Part shown: positions 3,640 through 22,247 of the stretch, piece by piece
Numbering within the stretch: the stretch's first letter is position 1
How the letters are laid out: each line of letters starts with the position of its first letter
NCBI GenBank assembly: GCA_035533075.1
Contig: DATLUO010000202.1
Location: forward strand, 1-51,038
Reading direction: 5' to 3'
Length of the DNA stretch: 51,038 nt
From: Pirellulales bacterium
Lineage (GTDB): Bacteria; Planctomycetota; Planctomycetia; Pirellulales; JAICIG01
Notes under the pieces: generated by a model
The model's input: only the letters and a program-made list of their open reading frames with translations
Database searches by the model: none
Told to the model about the DNA's origin: nothing
Program-made: the position numbers and the translations under genes

Positions 3640-3975
3640 GCACTCGCCACATCCGGGCTTGGGCTGCGCGCGCGAAGCGACACGCGTGTCGCGTCCGCGC
3701 GGCGCCGACAAGCAACGGGCCGCGCGGATTGAGCGTCGAAACGCTCGCGCACGACCGGCCGCCGGGTGCGCGACAAAAGCGCCTCGCGCGGCGCCTTCGC
3801 AGGGCGCGCCGTCTCGAACGCCGGAATCAAAACGAGTCCCTCGTACCATGAGAAAAGCGCCGCGCGCGGCGCGTTTGTTCTGCGCCGTGTCGAAGGCCGG
3901 GACCAAATGAGTCCCTCGCGCAAAACAAAAGCGACACGCGCGTGTCGCTTTTGTTTTGCGCACCGTGTCCGCGTG
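3640..3975. repeat. Array of covarying GC palindromes
   Basis: The gap after selA has no convincing gene but contains a run of self-complementary units: a 16-nt palindrome at 3677-3692 (GCGACACGCGTGTCGC), GAGCGT-cgaa-ACGCTC at 3731-3746, a 16-nt palindrome at 3857-3872 (GCGCCGCGCGCGGCGC), and a perfect 44-nt palindrome at 3918-3961. The last two are embedded in a roughly 75-bp unit (CGAA-GCCGG, then GAGTCCCTCG, then AAAAGCG-core) repeated from about 3813 and 3888. The core sequence changes between copies while both arms change together. Confidence 0.85.
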
Positions 3976-6611: not shown

Positions 6612-6663
6612 GATTTTGGATTTTGGATTTTGGATTCAATCGAAAATCCAAAATCGAAAATCC
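6612..6663. repeat. AT-rich hairpin repeat between shc and hpnH
   Basis: Three GATTTTG units face GAAAATCCAAAATCGAAAATCC across a 5-nt CAATC spacer, giving a strong hairpin in the 67-bp gap. In translation it gives the Lys/Asn/Gln-rich peptide (NPKSKIQNR) often seen as a false N-terminal extension of annotated proteins. Its base composition is sharply unlike its neighbours. Confidence 0.8.
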
Positions 6664-6667
6664 AGAA

Positions 6668-8686
6668 TCACCTCTGCCATCGTGCCAACGCCAACAACGG
6701 AAAGTAAACCCGATACAAGTGATAACGCAAATAGAACACCAAGGGAAATCCGGTGCCGGTGAAGGCGGTTTCGTCCCATGAGCCGTCGTCGCGCTGCTGC
6801 GAAACGAGATACCGCAGGCCGCGGAGCGTGGCTGGGTCGTCGCGGCGGCCGGCGGCCAACAGGCCCAACACGGCCCAGGCCGTTTGCGACGCCGTCGCCG
6901 GCCCCTGGCCGCGCAGCGCGGGATCGGCGTAGGTGTCGCACGATTCGCCCCAGCCGCCAGAGGGCTGTTGATGGGCCCGCAGCCATTCGGCCCCGGCGGT
7001 CATCAGCGGATCGTCGCTGGGCACGCCGATGGCCGCCAGCCCGGTGAGCACCTGCCAAGTGCCATAGATATAGTTGACGCCCCAGCGGCCGAACCAGCTT
7101 CCATCCGCCTCTTGCGAGGAGCGGAGGTAGGCCACTGCGCGGTCGATGGCCGGGTCGCCCACGCGACGCCCCAGCGTGCCGAGCGACTCCAGCACCCGTG
7201 CCGTCAAATCGGGAGTGCTGGGGTCGATCATGGCATTGTGGTCGGCGAAGGGCACATGGCAAAGAAACTCGGCGTCGTTGTCGCGGTCGAACGCCCCCCA
7301 GCCACCGTCGCGGTTCTGAAAGGCCAGCATCCAGCGCTCGGCCAGAGCGATCGCCTTCGTCGTCCGTTGAAGCAGATCGCCCGTCGGGCCATCGCCGCCG
7401 GCCGGCCGGTCGTCGTCGACCGAGGCCACGAACTGTTCGGCCAGCGCCATCGCCACCATGGCCGTGTCGTCGAGATCGGGATAAAAGTCGTTGGCGTGCT
7501 CGAAGCACCAGCCGCCCGGCTCGGCCCGCACTTTTTTCGACCAGTCGCCCGACCGCAGTATCTGCTTGTCGAGCAGCCAGGCGACCGCCCGATCGGAACC
7601 GTCTTGGGCCTGCCGCGCGCCGGCAAGCGCCCGAAGGGCCAAGGCCGTGTCCCAGACGGGTGACTTGCAAGGTTGCAGCCGCAAGGTGTCGTCTTCTTCG
7701 ATCATCAGGCCCCGCAACTGCTCGTGGCAATAACGCACCTGGGGCGAATCGTCGTCGTGGCCCAGGCATTTCAGGGCCACGATGCTCCAGATGATGGGCG
7801 GAAAGATCGCTCCCAGTCCGTCGCTGCCGGCAAAGCGTTCGGTCATCCATCGCGCCGCCGCGTCGATCGCCCGTCGCCGCAAAGGCAGCAGGCGATGGCG
7901 CTGGCACCATTTCCAGAGGCCGTCGGCGACGCGAAAAAAACGGTCCCAGCTCAGAGGCCCCGTGCCGCCTTTCAGACCGGGGCAGCGCAGCGGCGGCCAG
8001 CGGTGGGGCGGCTGCAAAAACAGCTCGCGGATGCCCAGCCGCGGAGCGAGCGACCGCACGGGCCGGAAAGCCGACATGATCGAGAGCGGCACCAGGATCG
8101 TGCGGCTCCAGGAGCTGATCGAATAAAGATTCACCGGAAACCACGTCGGCAACAGCAAGAACTCCGGCGGCACGGCCGGGCATTCTTCGTAGGAAATCTG
8201 GCCCAGCAATGCCAGATAGTAGCGAGTGAAGCTATTGACCGCGTCGGCCCCGCCGTGTGCCAGGATCGCCTGCCGGGCGCGCTGCATGTGCTCGGCGCTG
8301 GCCGGGTGCCCGGTGAGCTTCAAGGCGAAGTAGGCCTTGACGCTGGAGCTGACGTCGAGCTTGCCGCCGGGGTAGAGCGTCCAGCCGCCTTCGGGCCGCT
8401 GTTTCGACAGGATGTATCGGGCGGCCTTGTGGGCTTCGAGCGTGTCATTCCGGCCCAGCCAGGCCAACAACAGAATGTATTCGCTTTCCAGGATGGTGTC
8501 GCCTTCCAGCTCCCCGCACCAGTAGCCTTCGGCGTGCTGTGCCGAACGCAGCCAATCGGCGGCCCGCTCGGTTGACCGGCGGATTTCGCCAAACAAATCC
8601 TCCGCGCCGGGCACCCGCGCAGCCGATTTCGCTGTCGACGCGGTCCTGTCGAATGCGAACGCAGCAAGAGTGTGGCCCGGTTCCAT
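6668..8686 (-). CDS. shc: Squalene-hopene cyclase
   Basis: A 672-residue class II triterpene cyclase that converts squalene to hopene/hopanol at the membrane. The catalytic acid motif is Asp404-Leu-Asp-Asp407 (YPDLDDTAM), matching DXDD. QW repeats are visible: QRPEGGWTL (~96), QNRDGGWGAF, QEADGSWFGRWG, QQPSGGWGES and QQRDDGSWDE. PTWFPVNLYSISSWSR is the conserved membrane-inlet region. Length is typical (630-720). It sits directly upstream of hpnH. The start at 8686 lies about 130 bp after the GT4 stop; an alternative internal start would shorten the N terminus only. Confidence 0.95.
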   Translation of the reverse strand: MEPGHTLAAFAFDRTASTAKSAARVPGAEDLFGEIRRSTERAADWLRSAQHAEGYWCGELEGDTILESEYILLLAWLGRNDTLEAHKAARYILSKQRPEGGWTLYPGGKLDVSSSVKAYFALKLTGHPASAEHMQRARQAILAHGGADAVNSFTRYYLALLGQISYEECPAVPPEFLLLPTWFPVNLYSISSWSRTILVPLSIMSAFRPVRSLAPRLGIRELFLQPPHRWPPLRCPGLKGGTGPLSWDRFFRVADGLWKWCQRHRLLPLRRRAIDAAARWMTERFAGSDGLGAIFPPIIWSIVALKCLGHDDDSPQVRYCHEQLRGLMIEEDDTLRLQPCKSPVWDTALALRALAGARQAQDGSDRAVAWLLDKQILRSGDWSKKVRAEPGGWCFEHANDFYPDLDDTAMVAMALAEQFVASVDDDRPAGGDGPTGDLLQRTTKAIALAERWMLAFQNRDGGWGAFDRDNDAEFLCHVPFADHNAMIDPSTPDLTARVLESLGTLGRRVGDPAIDRAVAYLRSSQEADGSWFGRWGVNYIYGTWQVLTGLAAIGVPSDDPLMTAGAEWLRAHQQPSGGWGESCDTYADPALRGQGPATASQTAWAVLGLLAAGRRDDPATLRGLRYLVSQQRDDGSWDETAFTGTGFPLVFYLRYHLYRVYFPLLALARWQR

Positions 8687-17865: not shown

Positions 17866-17982
17866 ATGCCGCTGTTTCTCGATCCTGGCCATTACGTCGA
17901 CACGCCGTTGGAAATGACCTACGCCGCGGCGTTCGCCGGCATGCCGCAATTCTGGCGCGACGTGCTCGAAAAAAACGCTTAG
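17866..17982 (+). CDS. Possible 38-residue ORF next to rnpB
   Basis: MPLFLDPGHYVDTPLEMTYA and onward shows good third-position GC bias and a protein-like composition, ending in TAG at the edge of rnpB. No ribosome binding site and no recognised family. It could be chance or a relic of a longer gene. The rest of 17619-17865 shows nothing convincing. Confidence 0.25.
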   Translation: MPLFLDPGHYVDTPLEMTYAAAFAGMPQFWRDVLEKNA

Positions 17983-18386
17983 AGCGGACCTGTAAGCCGG
18001 GTTCTGTCTCCCCGTGCGGCAAGAACCGCGCGGGGCGATGGCCATTTCTCTAGGAGGCCGATTGCTCGGCCCCTCCAGCAACCTACCCGGAAGTCGATGG
18101 CGGGCCGGAACCAGCCCGCACGCCGGCGGCTTGCACCGCCGGCGTTGCTTCCTGTTTGGTCTTGCTCCGGGTGGGGTTTGCCTAGCCAGGCTGGTCGCCC
18201 AGCCTGCTGGTGAGCTCTTACCTCGCCGTTTCACCCTTGCCGCGCGGAAATCTCCACGAGGCGGTTTGCTTTCTGTTGCACTTTCCCTGGCCTTGCGGCC
18301 GGTGGGCGTTACCCACCGCCCTGTCCTGCGGAGCCCGGACTTTCCTCCCGCCGAGAATCTCGGCCGGCGGCCATCCGGTCCGCTCT
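17981..18386 (-). ncRNA. rnpB: RNase P RNA, bacterial class A
   Basis: A 406-nt minus-strand RNA. The P1 helix is perfect: the 5' end AGAGCGGACC pairs with the 3' end GGTCCGCTCT (17981-17990 against 18377-18386). The P4 5' strand GAGGAAAGTCCGGGC, the J-region GGTAACGCC, AGGGTGAAACGGCGAGGTAAG and the 3' strand ACAGAACCCGGCTTACAGG are all present. Class A rather than B is indicated by these blocks and the length. It processes tRNA 5' ends with RnpA, which is not in the window. Confidence 0.97.
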
Positions 18387-18523: not shown

Positions 18524-18697
18524 ATGATTGCCGCCGACTCGACCGACCCGCTCGCCGAGCTTGAACGTCGCCAAGATGAAGCCTTGCAGCAGCTTGACGA
18601 TCTTGATCGCCGCGTAGAACAGGCCCTGCGCGAGTTTATCGCGCTGGCCAAAACGACGGCCGAGCGGTTCGGCCGCCCGCAAAAAACCGCCGCCTAG
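18524..18697 (+). CDS. Small helical protein, unknown function
   Basis: A 57-residue acidic/basic helix-rich protein: AELERRQDEALQQLDDLDRR with heptad-like hydrophobics, ending in a basic tail. It looks like a single coiled-coil hairpin. The in-frame ATG at 18458 would add a Cys/Arg-rich non-protein-like piece, so 18524 is preferred. No clear Shine-Dalgarno sequence. Similar small proteins occur widely in planctomycetes, but this one is not assigned. Confidence 0.55.
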   Translation: MIAADSTDPLAELERRQDEALQQLDDLDRRVEQALREFIALAKTTAERFGRPQKTAA

Positions 18698-18804
18698 TGC
18701 TCTGTCATGGGTCGATTAGGCCGTCCCCTCGTGCTTTGGGGGCCTTGAAATCCAAGCGCCCTGGGGGCTCCGGCCGGTGCCGCGACAGATAATTTTGTTC
18801 AGTA

Positions 18805-18832
18805 TTGCGGCGAACGAGCGATCTGCTAGGAT
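18805..18832 (+). promoter_or_regulatory. Promoter of the candidate structured RNA
   Basis: TTGCGG (18805-18810), a 16-bp spacer and TAGGAT (18827-18832), placing the start near 18839. Both boxes match the sigma-70 consensus at 4 of 6. Confidence 0.4.
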
Positions 18833-18838
18833 TCCGGT

Positions 18839-19159
18839 AGCGATGTGATTTGTATTGGCGGATCGCGCCGGACTCTCCGGCGCGGTTGCCCGGCTAGACA
18901 GATCCTCACAGCACGGGGAAAATGGCGTAACCGGGGCTCCGGTGTGCCCAATACGGACTAGCCGACCGAGTTGCATCGCGGTCACGACGAGTGTCTTGAG
19001 ACGACTCCTTTCGGACCTTCAACAACAGGGAGGCATAAATGCAAGATCCACCTGGTTTGTTGGCATGAGGAAACGGGCGAGCCCGCTGGTTTCCTCACGC
19101 GATATCTTCACTATTCCGGACACTCCTCCCCGCCGAGCCCGGCGAGAGGGGTTTTTTTT
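18839..19159 (+). ncRNA. Candidate structured RNA of about 320 nt
   Basis: A gene-free stretch with a promoter at one end and a terminator at the other. Visible pairings: a long-range helix GTATTGG (18852-18858) with CCAATAC (18948-18954) enclosing GCGCCGGA-ctc-TCCGGCGC (18865-18883) and ACCGG-ggct-CCGGT; then GAGT-GTC-ttga-GAC-ACTC near 18990; then GAGGAAAC/GTTTCCTC (19067-19074 with 19089-19096) around CGGGC/GCCCG. GGGAGG (19028-19033) precedes a 9-codon ORF (19039-19068) and can pair with CCTCCC in the terminator stem. It does not match tmRNA, SRP RNA or a riboswitch class that I recognise. Confidence 0.45.
19128..19159 (+). terminator. Rho-independent terminator
   Basis: CCCCGCCG, loop AGCC, CGGC, a GAGA bulge and GGGG, followed by eight T residues (19152-19159). 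The only upstream plus-strand candidate is the structured RNA at 18839. Confidence 0.65.
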
Positions 19160-19244: not shown

Positions 19245-22200
19245 TCACGCCGCCCGACGGCCGGAGGGCGCGACGCGTGGCAGCGTTTGGCCCGGCTCCG
19301 TCGACCAGATGTTCTGGTGCTGCTCGTGCCGGTTGTCGCGAAAGACATCGTAGGCCGGCTCGATGCGTCCTTCCGTCAGAAGGCGGTGCTCGCGGGTGAC
19401 CTGCGCATCGAGCCGCGCCACGCGGCCGAGCGTGGCGGCCACCGCTTGCGGCACGATGTGCGGCAAACGATCGAGATCGCGATAGGCGTCCAGCAGAATG
19501 CCGATGCTCTCGCACAAGCGGCCGCTAGGCATGCCGGGATATGCTTCGTCGAGATACCGGGCCACGTGCCAGGCGTATTCGATGTCGCTGCTGACGTGCC
19601 GGCAATACGACTTGCGGTGCTGCAGGGCCGCGAACAGCAAATTCTCGGCCTCGCTGAAATCGGCGTTCTCCAGCGCGTAGCGAACGCCCGCGGCGGTTCG
19701 GTGCAGGTTCCAGGCCCGCAAGTCTTCGATCTCTGCTTGAGGGCTGCACGTCGTTTGGCCCGCCGGATAGTTCCAAAACACACCCAGCGTCTGGCCGATG
19801 GCCTTCGATTTGATGAACGGCAGCACACGATTCTTGAACTCGGTGTCGCCGGCCGCGCCGAAGCTGGCATCGTAGTAACCGAGCCGGTCGTGAATCGTGC
19901 GGCGGTACATTGCGCCCACATACGACAGGTAACAGGTTTCCAGGTAGACCAGCCGCTGTGCATAACCGCTGCGATCGTAGGTCATGAGGTCGCTCACCCA
20001 GTGGCCGCGCTCGTTGACGCGCATCACCAGGCTGTTGGACTGCACCCAATCGACCTGGCGGTTGGCGTCGAGCTCGTCGGCGAGCACTTGCAGGGCGTTG
20101 GGCAGCATCGCTTCGTCGACGCCCAAGAAGCTGAGATACTGCCCGTGCGACAGGCCGATGCCGCGGTTCCAGGCCGCTTGAATCGTCTCGCGGTGTCTCG
20201 ACCGCGCGTAAACGGCCGGCGTGCCCGTGCGGTCGGCCCACTGGCGGAAGACGCGATATTCGTCTTCGGGCGAGCCACTGTCGATGAGCACGACTTCCGC
20301 CTGACGTGTCCGCAGCAGCGTTTGCAGCGACAGCGTGTCAAGGAACAGCGGCAAGTTCGCGGCCGCTTTGTAGAGCGAGACGATGACCGTAGCCCGATAG
20401 GTGCGCGGCCCGCGCCGGTCGTCGATCAATTCATATTCCGCGCCGGCCGGGCGACGATGATCGCGGGCCGCGCGATCGAGCAGTTCGCGGCAGCGGTGTT
20501 GGCCGTCGGGCTGGCCGTCGTACATGGCGGCGGCCACTTCCGCTTCGCGGTGAAAGCCGTGTTCGCCAAGCGTTTGCATGACCGTGGGCAGATCGCCGTG
20601 CTGGTCTGTGCCGGTAAGCCGCATCGCGCGCAGGCGGTAGGTGGCGGCCACCAGGCCGTTGCCGCGCAGCGACTCGATGCGCGCCAACTCGCGCCACAGC
20701 CGCGCCCGGTCGATTCGCAAATCGACGACAAGCTGGCCGCACTGCCGCCACTTCTCTGAAAGCTCGGCAGTCGTGCGCTCCGGCATCCAAGCGACGGCAT
20801 GATAGCGGGCCGCGACGGCCCTGCCCCGCATCTCCAGCTCGCGCGCGGGCGGCGCGCGTCGTTGCGTCAGTCGCTTGCCCACGGCAGGCTTGCAAGCGGC
20901 GGCCAAACGGCGGGGATGAAGGCTGCGAACACCCGCGCGGAACTGCTGGCTGGTGTGCTTGCGTACCAGCCGGCGGACCGATTCCTTCAGGCCGGTTATG
21001 CCCGTTGGCGTGCGGCCGGCGTGCTCGATCATCCGCTGATACCAGCCGGACGCCTCGCGCCGCACGTCTTGGCTAAACGACGGCGGGCTGCCGTAAATCT
21101 CGGCCAGCGACGGACCGCGCGCCGAGGGCGACGCAACCGCCAGAGACTCCACGAGGCGCCCGCGGTAACGATCGTAATCGGCCAACACGCTTTCCAGCTG
21201 CGGCAGGCTTGCCAGCGGCCGGTCCATGTCGAGCTTGATATACGGGACGCCGGGGAAGTATTCGTCGAGAAAGCGGCACACGCCTGCGCCGTTGCCGATG
21301 GCCGTGGGGCAGCCGGAGAACAGCGACTCGACGGCCACGAGGTTGAAGGTGTCGTAACGCGAGGGGAGCACCGTGATGCTGCGGGCGGCAAACCGCTGAC
21401 GCAACTCGTCGGGCGTCGCCGCGGGACACAGCTCGATCGCCTTGTCGCCCGGCCGACGGCGCAAATAGTCGTTCAGATGCTGCTCGGAGCTGGTGCCAAA
21501 AAGGTCGTTGCTCGGCGGCCCGATGATCCGCGCGCGGGCGTAGAGCGCCGGCGGCAGCCACCAGCACAGTTCCGCAAACACATCGGGCCCTTTGCGCTTT
21601 TCCGTGCGGCCCACGAAGTTCAGATCGGGCGGGTCGGCTGATTCGGCGGAACGTACTGGCAGGTAGGGACCGAGAAACCGCAACGGGCAAAGATAGTGCG
21701 AGGCGAGCGCGAATCGTGCTCGCCACTCGTCGAGATAATCGGCACTCAAGCCATAGCGGATGTCGGCCGCCTGGTACTGCATCTCTTCTTGCCGGACGGC
21801 TTCCTGCGGCAATGCGCCGTCGCTGCCCCAGTTCATGCTGATCGTCGTCGAAATCACGCCGTGCATCGAAAGCGCGACGCGCTTCACATCGGCGCCGTGG
21901 TGTGCCAAGGCGGCGGGCAGGAAATAACCAAGCTGCTTGTAGTCGGGCAAATCGACGACGTCGAACGACCGGCCGCGCACCGAATAGGCGATGTTGCTCG
22001 CGAGCAGGAAGGCGGGCAGGCACCAGCGAGGCGGCACGAGGTCGCAGTAATCGGTCCATTGCCGCTCGACGTAATGCGGCTCGCAGCGGATGGCCCGCGC
22101 ATTCGCAGGGCGTGGCGAATCGACGGCCTCATTGACGATCGGATAAGAGAATTCGATTTGGGGATTTTTTTCGATGACGGCGCGATAGAACGTCTGCCCG

Positions 22201-22247
22201 CCGCCGACGGTGCGGAAAAGATCGAAATCCGCAATCAGAACGTGCAT
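19245..22247 (-). CDS. Two-domain glycosyltransferase (GT4 then GT2)
   Basis: A 1000-residue protein. Residues 1 to about 430 form a GT-B (GT4-like) enzyme: MHVLIADFDLFRTVGGGQTF, LNFVGRTEKRKGPDVFAEL and ITVLPSRYDTFNLVAVESLF, the last holding the donor-binding glutamates. A roughly 200-residue Arg-rich linker follows. The region from about 635 is a GT-A (GT2) domain: ATVIVSLYKAAANLPLFLDT, EVVLIDSGSPEDE, QAAWNRGIGLSHGQYLSFLG and an Asp in FLGVDE. A helical C-terminal tail closes it. It may add two sugars in sequence to a surface glycan. The start has GGAGG upstream. It is preceded on the same strand by a PQQ-propeller gene 184 bp away. Confidence 0.85.
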   Translation of the reverse strand: MHVLIADFDLFRTVGGGQTFYRAVIEKNPQIEFSYPIVNEAVDSPRPANARAIRCEPHYVERQWTDYCDLVPPRWCLPAFLLASNIAYSVRGRSFDVVDLPDYKQLGYFLPAALAHHGADVKRVALSMHGVISTTISMNWGSDGALPQEAVRQEEMQYQAADIRYGLSADYLDEWRARFALASHYLCPLRFLGPYLPVRSAESADPPDLNFVGRTEKRKGPDVFAELCWWLPPALYARARIIGPPSNDLFGTSSEQHLNDYLRRRPGDKAIELCPAATPDELRQRFAARSITVLPSRYDTFNLVAVESLFSGCPTAIGNGAGVCRFLDEYFPGVPYIKLDMDRPLASLPQLESVLADYDRYRGRLVESLAVASPSARGPSLAEIYGSPPSFSQDVRREASGWYQRMIEHAGRTPTGITGLKESVRRLVRKHTSQQFRAGVRSLHPRRLAAACKPAVGKRLTQRRAPPARELEMRGRAVAARYHAVAWMPERTTAELSEKWRQCGQLVVDLRIDRARLWRELARIESLRGNGLVAATYRLRAMRLTGTDQHGDLPTVMQTLGEHGFHREAEVAAAMYDGQPDGQHRCRELLDRAARDHRRPAGAEYELIDDRRGPRTYRATVIVSLYKAAANLPLFLDTLSLQTLLRTRQAEVVLIDSGSPEDEYRVFRQWADRTGTPAVYARSRHRETIQAAWNRGIGLSHGQYLSFLGVDEAMLPNALQVLADELDANRQVDWVQSNSLVMRVNERGHWVSDLMTYDRSGYAQRLVYLETCYLSYVGAMYRRTIHDRLGYYDASFGAAGDTEFKNRVLPFIKSKAIGQTLGVFWNYPAGQTTCSPQAEIEDLRAWNLHRTAAGVRYALENADFSEAENLLFAALQHRKSYCRHVSSDIEYAWHVARYLDEAYPGMPSGRLCESIGILLDAYRDLDRLPHIVPQAVAATLGRVARLDAQVTREHRLLTEGRIEPAYDVFRDNRHEQHQNIWSTEPGQTLPRVAPSGRRAA

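Follow-up and report, generated by a model that had tools for sequence, protein, structure and literature searches.

The window under study (the whole stretch of 51,038 nt) carries on its plus strand a predicted transcript of about 320 nt (18839–19159), delineated by the positions of a promoter and a terminator and by the z-score of its fold. This unit lies between a small plus-strand ORF (18524–18697) and a convergent gene on the minus strand (19245–22247). The former encodes an acidic, coiled-coil-like product that matches no Pfam or NCBIfam family, and similar frames of 70–180 codons occur in most genomes of the order. The latter encodes a double glycosyltransferase (families 1 and 2) of 1000 residues, whose best relative comes from a Pirellulales MAG (52%), those ranking next being mostly alpha- and betaproteobacterial (35–47%), a patchy spread that suggests horizontal transfer. 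At the loci checked in relatives (L033 and L072), the RNA adjoins neither the small protein gene nor the glycosyltransferase gene, and there is therefore no synteny. The ORFs crossing the RNA gap match no Pfam or NCBIfam family; the long ones were rejected as coding sequences, having no support and weak tblastn matches that look like chance, so that the gap without a gene noted in the preliminary description stands. Note that a bacterial class A RNase P RNA (17977–18386, minus strand, 287 bits) is encoded 0.45 kb from the new RNA and is divergent to the small ORF. Repeats are found elsewhere in the window: an array of 26 CCTGAAC heptamers where the contig begins (1–185); clustered related palindromes (AACAAAAGCGMC...), with one perfect 22-nt inverted repeat and fold z-scores down to −5.4, at 3735–3971; and two adjacent heptamer arrays (GATTTTG / AATCGAAAATCCAA) that form an inverted pair, with fold z-scores of about −6 nearby, at 6612–6669.

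Predicted architecture of the transcript

The promoter (18799–18832; all features in this section lie on the plus strand) comprises a conserved block, TCAGTATTGCGGCGA, at 18799–18813 and an extended −10 element, TGCTAGGAT, at 18824–18832, in a TTGCGG-N16-TAGGAT layout with a TG before the −10 (18805–18832). At the other end, the intrinsic terminator (19122–19159) combines a hairpin of −18.8 kcal/mol with a T8 tract (19152–19159); this hairpin is the most stable of those preceding the 16 runs of at least six T residues in the window. Both elements had been proposed at the outset, and both have counterparts elsewhere: the promoter block is kept in a homologous locus, L103, as TCAGTATTGGCGCGA ... 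TGATAGGAT, and T7 terminators occupy the matching position in L103 and in a second homologue, L108.

The segment 18827–19162 folds with a z-score of −4.8, or −5.0 once the terminator is removed. When shuffled separately, the 5′ and 3′ domains, as well as the 5′ domain minus its strong hairpin, are each more stable than all 200 dinucleotide shuffles (z-scores of −3.4 to −3.9), and the upstream flank gives a z-score of +0.34; the multi-helix fold with strong local hairpins read earlier from the sequence is thereby borne out. Note that z-scores below −4 were also reached by about 5% of the other 300-nt stretches in the part of the window that was scanned, so that folding alone is no proof and would also suit a chance origin, the locus then being GC-rich intergenic DNA that folds and ends in the terminator of an upstream transcript.

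The 5′ structured domain (18840–18979) is predicted to be multi-branched and closed by helix P1 (18840–18852/18967–18979, pair probability 0.99). Inside P1 lie the P3 hairpin (18857–18890) and helix P4 (18891–18897/18958–18964, pair probability 0.99), which encloses hairpins P5 (18903–18919) and P6 (18924–18948). The closing helix had been assigned to the sequences GTATTGG (18852–18858) and CCAATAC (18948–18954). These are indeed complementary, but it is P1 that closes the domain: their pairing is absent from the minimum-energy fold (pair probability of about 1e-5), a nested alternative is 8.8 kcal/mol worse, and the pairing is not clearly kept in L103. Since it crosses the very stable P4, it is a candidate pseudoknot, or else an alternative fold.

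Downstream, a second predicted hairpin (18980–19017) ends in the conserved sequence TTTCGGACC(TTC) (19009–19020), identical in L103 at 12 of 12 positions. Then come a Shine–Dalgarno (SD) site, GGGAGG (19028–19033), and a nine-codon ORF encoding MQDPPGLLA (19039–19068), the pair spanning 19028–19068; a GGGAGG-led ORF of nine codons had been noted at the outset. A stop-codon hairpin (19063–19100), whose main stem starts at the stop codon, is predicted to form by pairing of UGAGGAAAC (19066–19074) with GUUUCCUCA (19090–19098), and an unstructured linker (19101–19121; unpaired probability of about 0.89 for 19101–19117) leads to the terminator. The linker is present in the window locus, L103 and L108; it is pyrimidine-rich in the homologues, and its sequence is poorly conserved.

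Homologous loci and the nine-codon ORF

L103 lies in G001, a genome from another genus of the same family and the only other same-family genome compared. It was retrieved as a weak match to R2, a model covering the 3′ half (21.4 bits, E 0.03 per genome), is colinear with the window locus and, in its own 3′ half, has a ribosome site followed by ATGCAAGAnCCACCTGG, then a stop-codon hairpin and a T7 terminator. We regard L103 as a confirmed homologue because features outside the R2 model also match: (i) the promoter block; (ii) the spacing from the end of the −10 to the ATG, 207 nt in both loci; (iii) the leader motif TAGACAnATCC; (iv) the shape of the 5′ domain; and (v) the terminator. The other promoter and leader identities are TCAGTATTG-nn-GCGA, TGnTAGGAT, ATACGnnCTA and TTTCGGACCTTC. 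Folded alone, the 5′ domain of L103 adopts the same shape as that of the window, [[][[][]]], in which the closing helix surrounds a single hairpin and a further helix that itself holds two hairpins; with closure, this shape arises in 3 of 1000 shuffles of L103. Comparison of P1 between the two loci, aligned on GCGA and with pairs assigned by hand from pair lists, displays three two-sided changes (U–A to C–G, G–C to A–U and A–U to U–A) and two one-sided ones.

L108 lies in G032, a genome from another family of the order, and was traced from a short blastn match covering the ORF. It keeps the 3′ half only: an SD site, GAGGAGGG, the reading frame ATG CAA GAT CCA CCG GGT CTG TTT TTG TGA, a stop-codon hairpin of ten pairs, the linker and a T7 terminator. 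The presence of the SD site, of exactly nine codons, of the stop hairpin and of the terminator confirms it as a homologue. A promoter-like TTGACG is found slightly more than 100 nt before the ORF; since the 200-nt folded leader is absent, the 5′ domain may be an addition specific to one lineage. Two homologues exist and P1 displays compensatory changes, as expected of a structured RNA, but with three sequences the covariation is thin.

The homologues are decisive where folding is not, and indicate that the RNA is more than chance: colinear L103 keeps the promoter, spacing, fold shape, ORF and terminator, and the pattern of SD site, ORF and T7 run is specific in 2.24 Mb (see below), which makes a chance origin extremely improbable.

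Other searches yielded no further copy. Whole-element blastn against 97 relatives and 396 genomes of the order returned short GC-rich matches only, one of which, L002, was discarded as lying inside an ORF. A model of the 5′ domain built from one sequence (R1) retrieved no homologue from 97 relatives and 392 genomes of the phylum; with this model, the true homologue L103 scores just 8.5 bits, so that the R1 negative for G001 is false and the other R1 negatives are weak. Two covariance-model matches without an ORF, L104 and L105, were taken as chance, and a weak model match, L062 (contig C267 of the same genome as the window), was rejected because it falls inside a Cas3-like ORF; from the latter, this genome seems to have a type I CRISPR system. 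Most members of the order gave no match, the searches being insensitive to so short an element. Plasmid and phage collections contained no match to the RNA, pattern-scan matches in viral contigs were judged to be chance, and a fourth copy was not found in the parts of G016 (about 1.7 Mb) and G085 (0.4 Mb) that were scanned.

The ORF encodes MQEPPGWLR in L103 and MQDPPGLFL in L108. Its start, stop and length of nine codons are identical in the three loci, and the SD sequence AGG(A/G)(A/G)GGC is kept in all of them. Over codons 1–6 of the three sequences, all differences affect third positions; one exchanges D and E and the others are synonymous. The three stop-codon hairpins, each with a stem that includes the stop codon, differ in stem sequence. 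In 2.24 Mb of related DNA, 70 ORFs of 7–12 codons have a strong SD site; a T7 run lies within the next 130 nt in just three of them, namely those of the window locus, L103 and L108. By sequence comparison, the nine-codon ORF is the conserved core and the most widely kept part of the RNA; it is no incidental feature, since the set of SD site, ORF, stop hairpin, linker and terminator is kept in all three loci and is specific in 2.2 Mb. Start, length, SD site and third-position changes provide good but not final evidence that the ORF is translated, and the recurrence of its peptide in two related genomes suggests that this translation is central to the role of the RNA.

These data bear on the idea of a trans-acting antisense RNA with an incidental ORF, the linker and loops of which would pair with target mRNAs. 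The transcript's own promoter and terminator and the long unpaired segment 19101–19117 would suit such a function; yet the best conserved part is the ORF, with codon-like substitutions, rather than the linker, whose sequence is poorly kept, and Hfq was not found in the genome. We therefore hold the antisense reading to be improbable.

Genomic context and relation to known RNAs

The gene next to the RNA is convergent both in the window and in L108, and no plus-strand gene follows in either, so that the RNA is not a cis leader at these loci; the cis leader, attenuator and riboswitch classes were rejected. Only in L103 is the downstream ORF, of 480+ codons, co-directional. There, at L103 1643–1740, this signal-peptide ORF starts with an ATG a few bases past the U-tract of the terminator, and its ribosome site would consequently fall in the terminator stem. 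One could nevertheless imagine a leader-peptide attenuator whose downstream gene has been lost or changed: the L103 terminator directly precedes an ORF, and an ORF followed by hairpins and a terminator is an attenuator layout. With a convergent gene next to the RNA in two loci and different neighbours in all three, we assign a low probability to this origin.

A switch between the SD site and the terminator stem had also been suggested. Pairing of GGGAGG (19028–19033) with CCTCCC in the terminator foot (19125–19130) is possible, and in all three loci the SD region matches the 3′ linker or the terminator foot over 5–6 nt; however, the pairing costs 8.8 kcal/mol in the window, and the switch has no cis target since the next gene (19245–22247) is on the opposite strand. 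Translational self-control may still operate, in view of the SD match in all three loci.

The monocistronic context in two of the three loci also fits a micropeptide gene, in which the nine-residue peptide would be the trans-acting product and the RNA no more than a short mRNA for it, equipped with a structured leader, a stop hairpin for stability and a terminator. This explanation, possible if doubtful, is nearly as good as the trans-acting RNA that we favour (see below): the peptide is kept (MQDPPGLLA, MQEPPGWLR, MQDPPGLFL) while the flanks and even the leader differ. It is weakened by the small size of the peptide, which lacks a targeting signal, and by the 200-nt folded leader common to two genera, which exceeds the needs of an mRNA; moreover, it leaves the stop-codon hairpin unexplained.

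The window locus, L103 and L108 reach no gathering threshold of Rfam 15 and give sub-threshold chance matches only, which agrees with the preliminary description of a new structured RNA of about 320 nt outside the recognised classes, as do the two homologues and some compensatory changes. The RNA is comparable in size to 6S RNA and tmRNA, which are abundant-type structured RNAs, tmRNA likewise having a short ORF. Neither identity was retained: no tmRNA or tRNA lies at the locus, the tmRNA of the genome being elsewhere (G000:C216, 176.7 bits), and the fold is multi-branched, not a rod with a central bubble, and does not match the 6S family RF00013. A search of the genome at E 10 yielded no 6S RNA, which PMC5673643 (citing Wehner 2014) reports absent in relatives. 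A full-text literature search with the peptide prefix found no paper.

In kind, the RNA resembles two groups of known regulators. Dual-function small RNAs such as SgrS/SgrT, Spot 42/SpfP and SR1/SR1P carry ORFs of 15–43 codons. Like them, the new RNA is short, has a small ORF and is independently terminated, its own promoter and terminator being predicted and conserved in L103; they differ by their longer ORFs, show no sequence or structure relation to it in Rfam and have a base-pairing target, whereas it has no known one. The second group comprises released attenuator RNAs such as rnTrpL, which is released from the trp attenuator upstream of its operon. The Sinorhizobium rnTrpL/peTrpL system (PMC7298713), the product of which can act in trans, is likewise a terminated small RNA with a very short ORF, downstream hairpins and a terminator; however, rnTrpL has Trp codons and an operon downstream, whereas the new RNA has PPG and, in two of three genomes, no downstream gene. 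All three ORFs contain PPG, a PPX stall motif; in general, ribosomes stall at this tripeptide and EF-P relieves them (PMC5021804). Known EF-P-dependent polyproline stall sequences (PMC5021804) share with the new RNA a PPG near the ORF start and an intrinsic terminator downstream, but they are situated within ordinary genes or reporters and not in a conserved free-standing nine-codon ORF. As judged from the libraries searched, the sequence, the ORF length, the PPG motif and the stop-codon hairpin are new.

A proposed translation-dependent model

Comparison of the loci establishes a predicted succession of promoter, folded 5′ domain, ribosome site, ORF, stop-codon hairpin, linker and terminator. 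We favour a trans-acting RNA governed by translation of the ORF because there is no cis gene and because of the PPG stall motif, the placement of the hairpin and the SD pairing. More specifically, the locus would be a stand-alone RNA gene of about 320 nt, the working part of which would be the translated ORF, MQ(D/E)PPG plus three further codons for mostly hydrophobic residues, with pausing dependent on EF-P and prolyl-tRNA setting the trans-acting RNA. This full proposition is plausible but tentative; that the RNA acts in trans through translation and PPG pausing is our best guess.

Ribosomes would load on the SD site and slow down or stall at Pro-Pro-Gly, a stalling that we infer for the nine-codon ORF. 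In all three RNAs, the stop-codon hairpin starts about nine nt after the Gly codon, which, given the size of the ribosome footprint, would place it near the mRNA entry of the paused ribosome and could strengthen the pause. The paused ribosome would cover the initiation site and hold the pairing between the SD site and the terminator foot open. In this way, how translation elongation proceeds (EF-P activity, prolyl-tRNA) would determine the fold, stability or activity of the terminated trans-acting RNA.

A further-reaching proposal, which we consider unlikely at this stage, is that this order has a new class of free-standing RNAs that sense translation, of which this RNA is one: arrest in the PPG ORF, with the hairpin on its stop codon, would report EF-P or prolyl-tRNA status and switch the activity of the structured trans-acting RNA. 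The conserved core spans only about 80 nt, which is why current libraries miss the family. Leader peptides aside, the ORF would rank among the shortest ones conserved in bacteria and, if the PPG arrest is real, EF-P-dependent stalling would be a dedicated regulatory device and not a hazard. Finally, little is known of regulatory RNAs in planctomycetes, and the predicted element would give this group a structured RNA driven by its own promoter.
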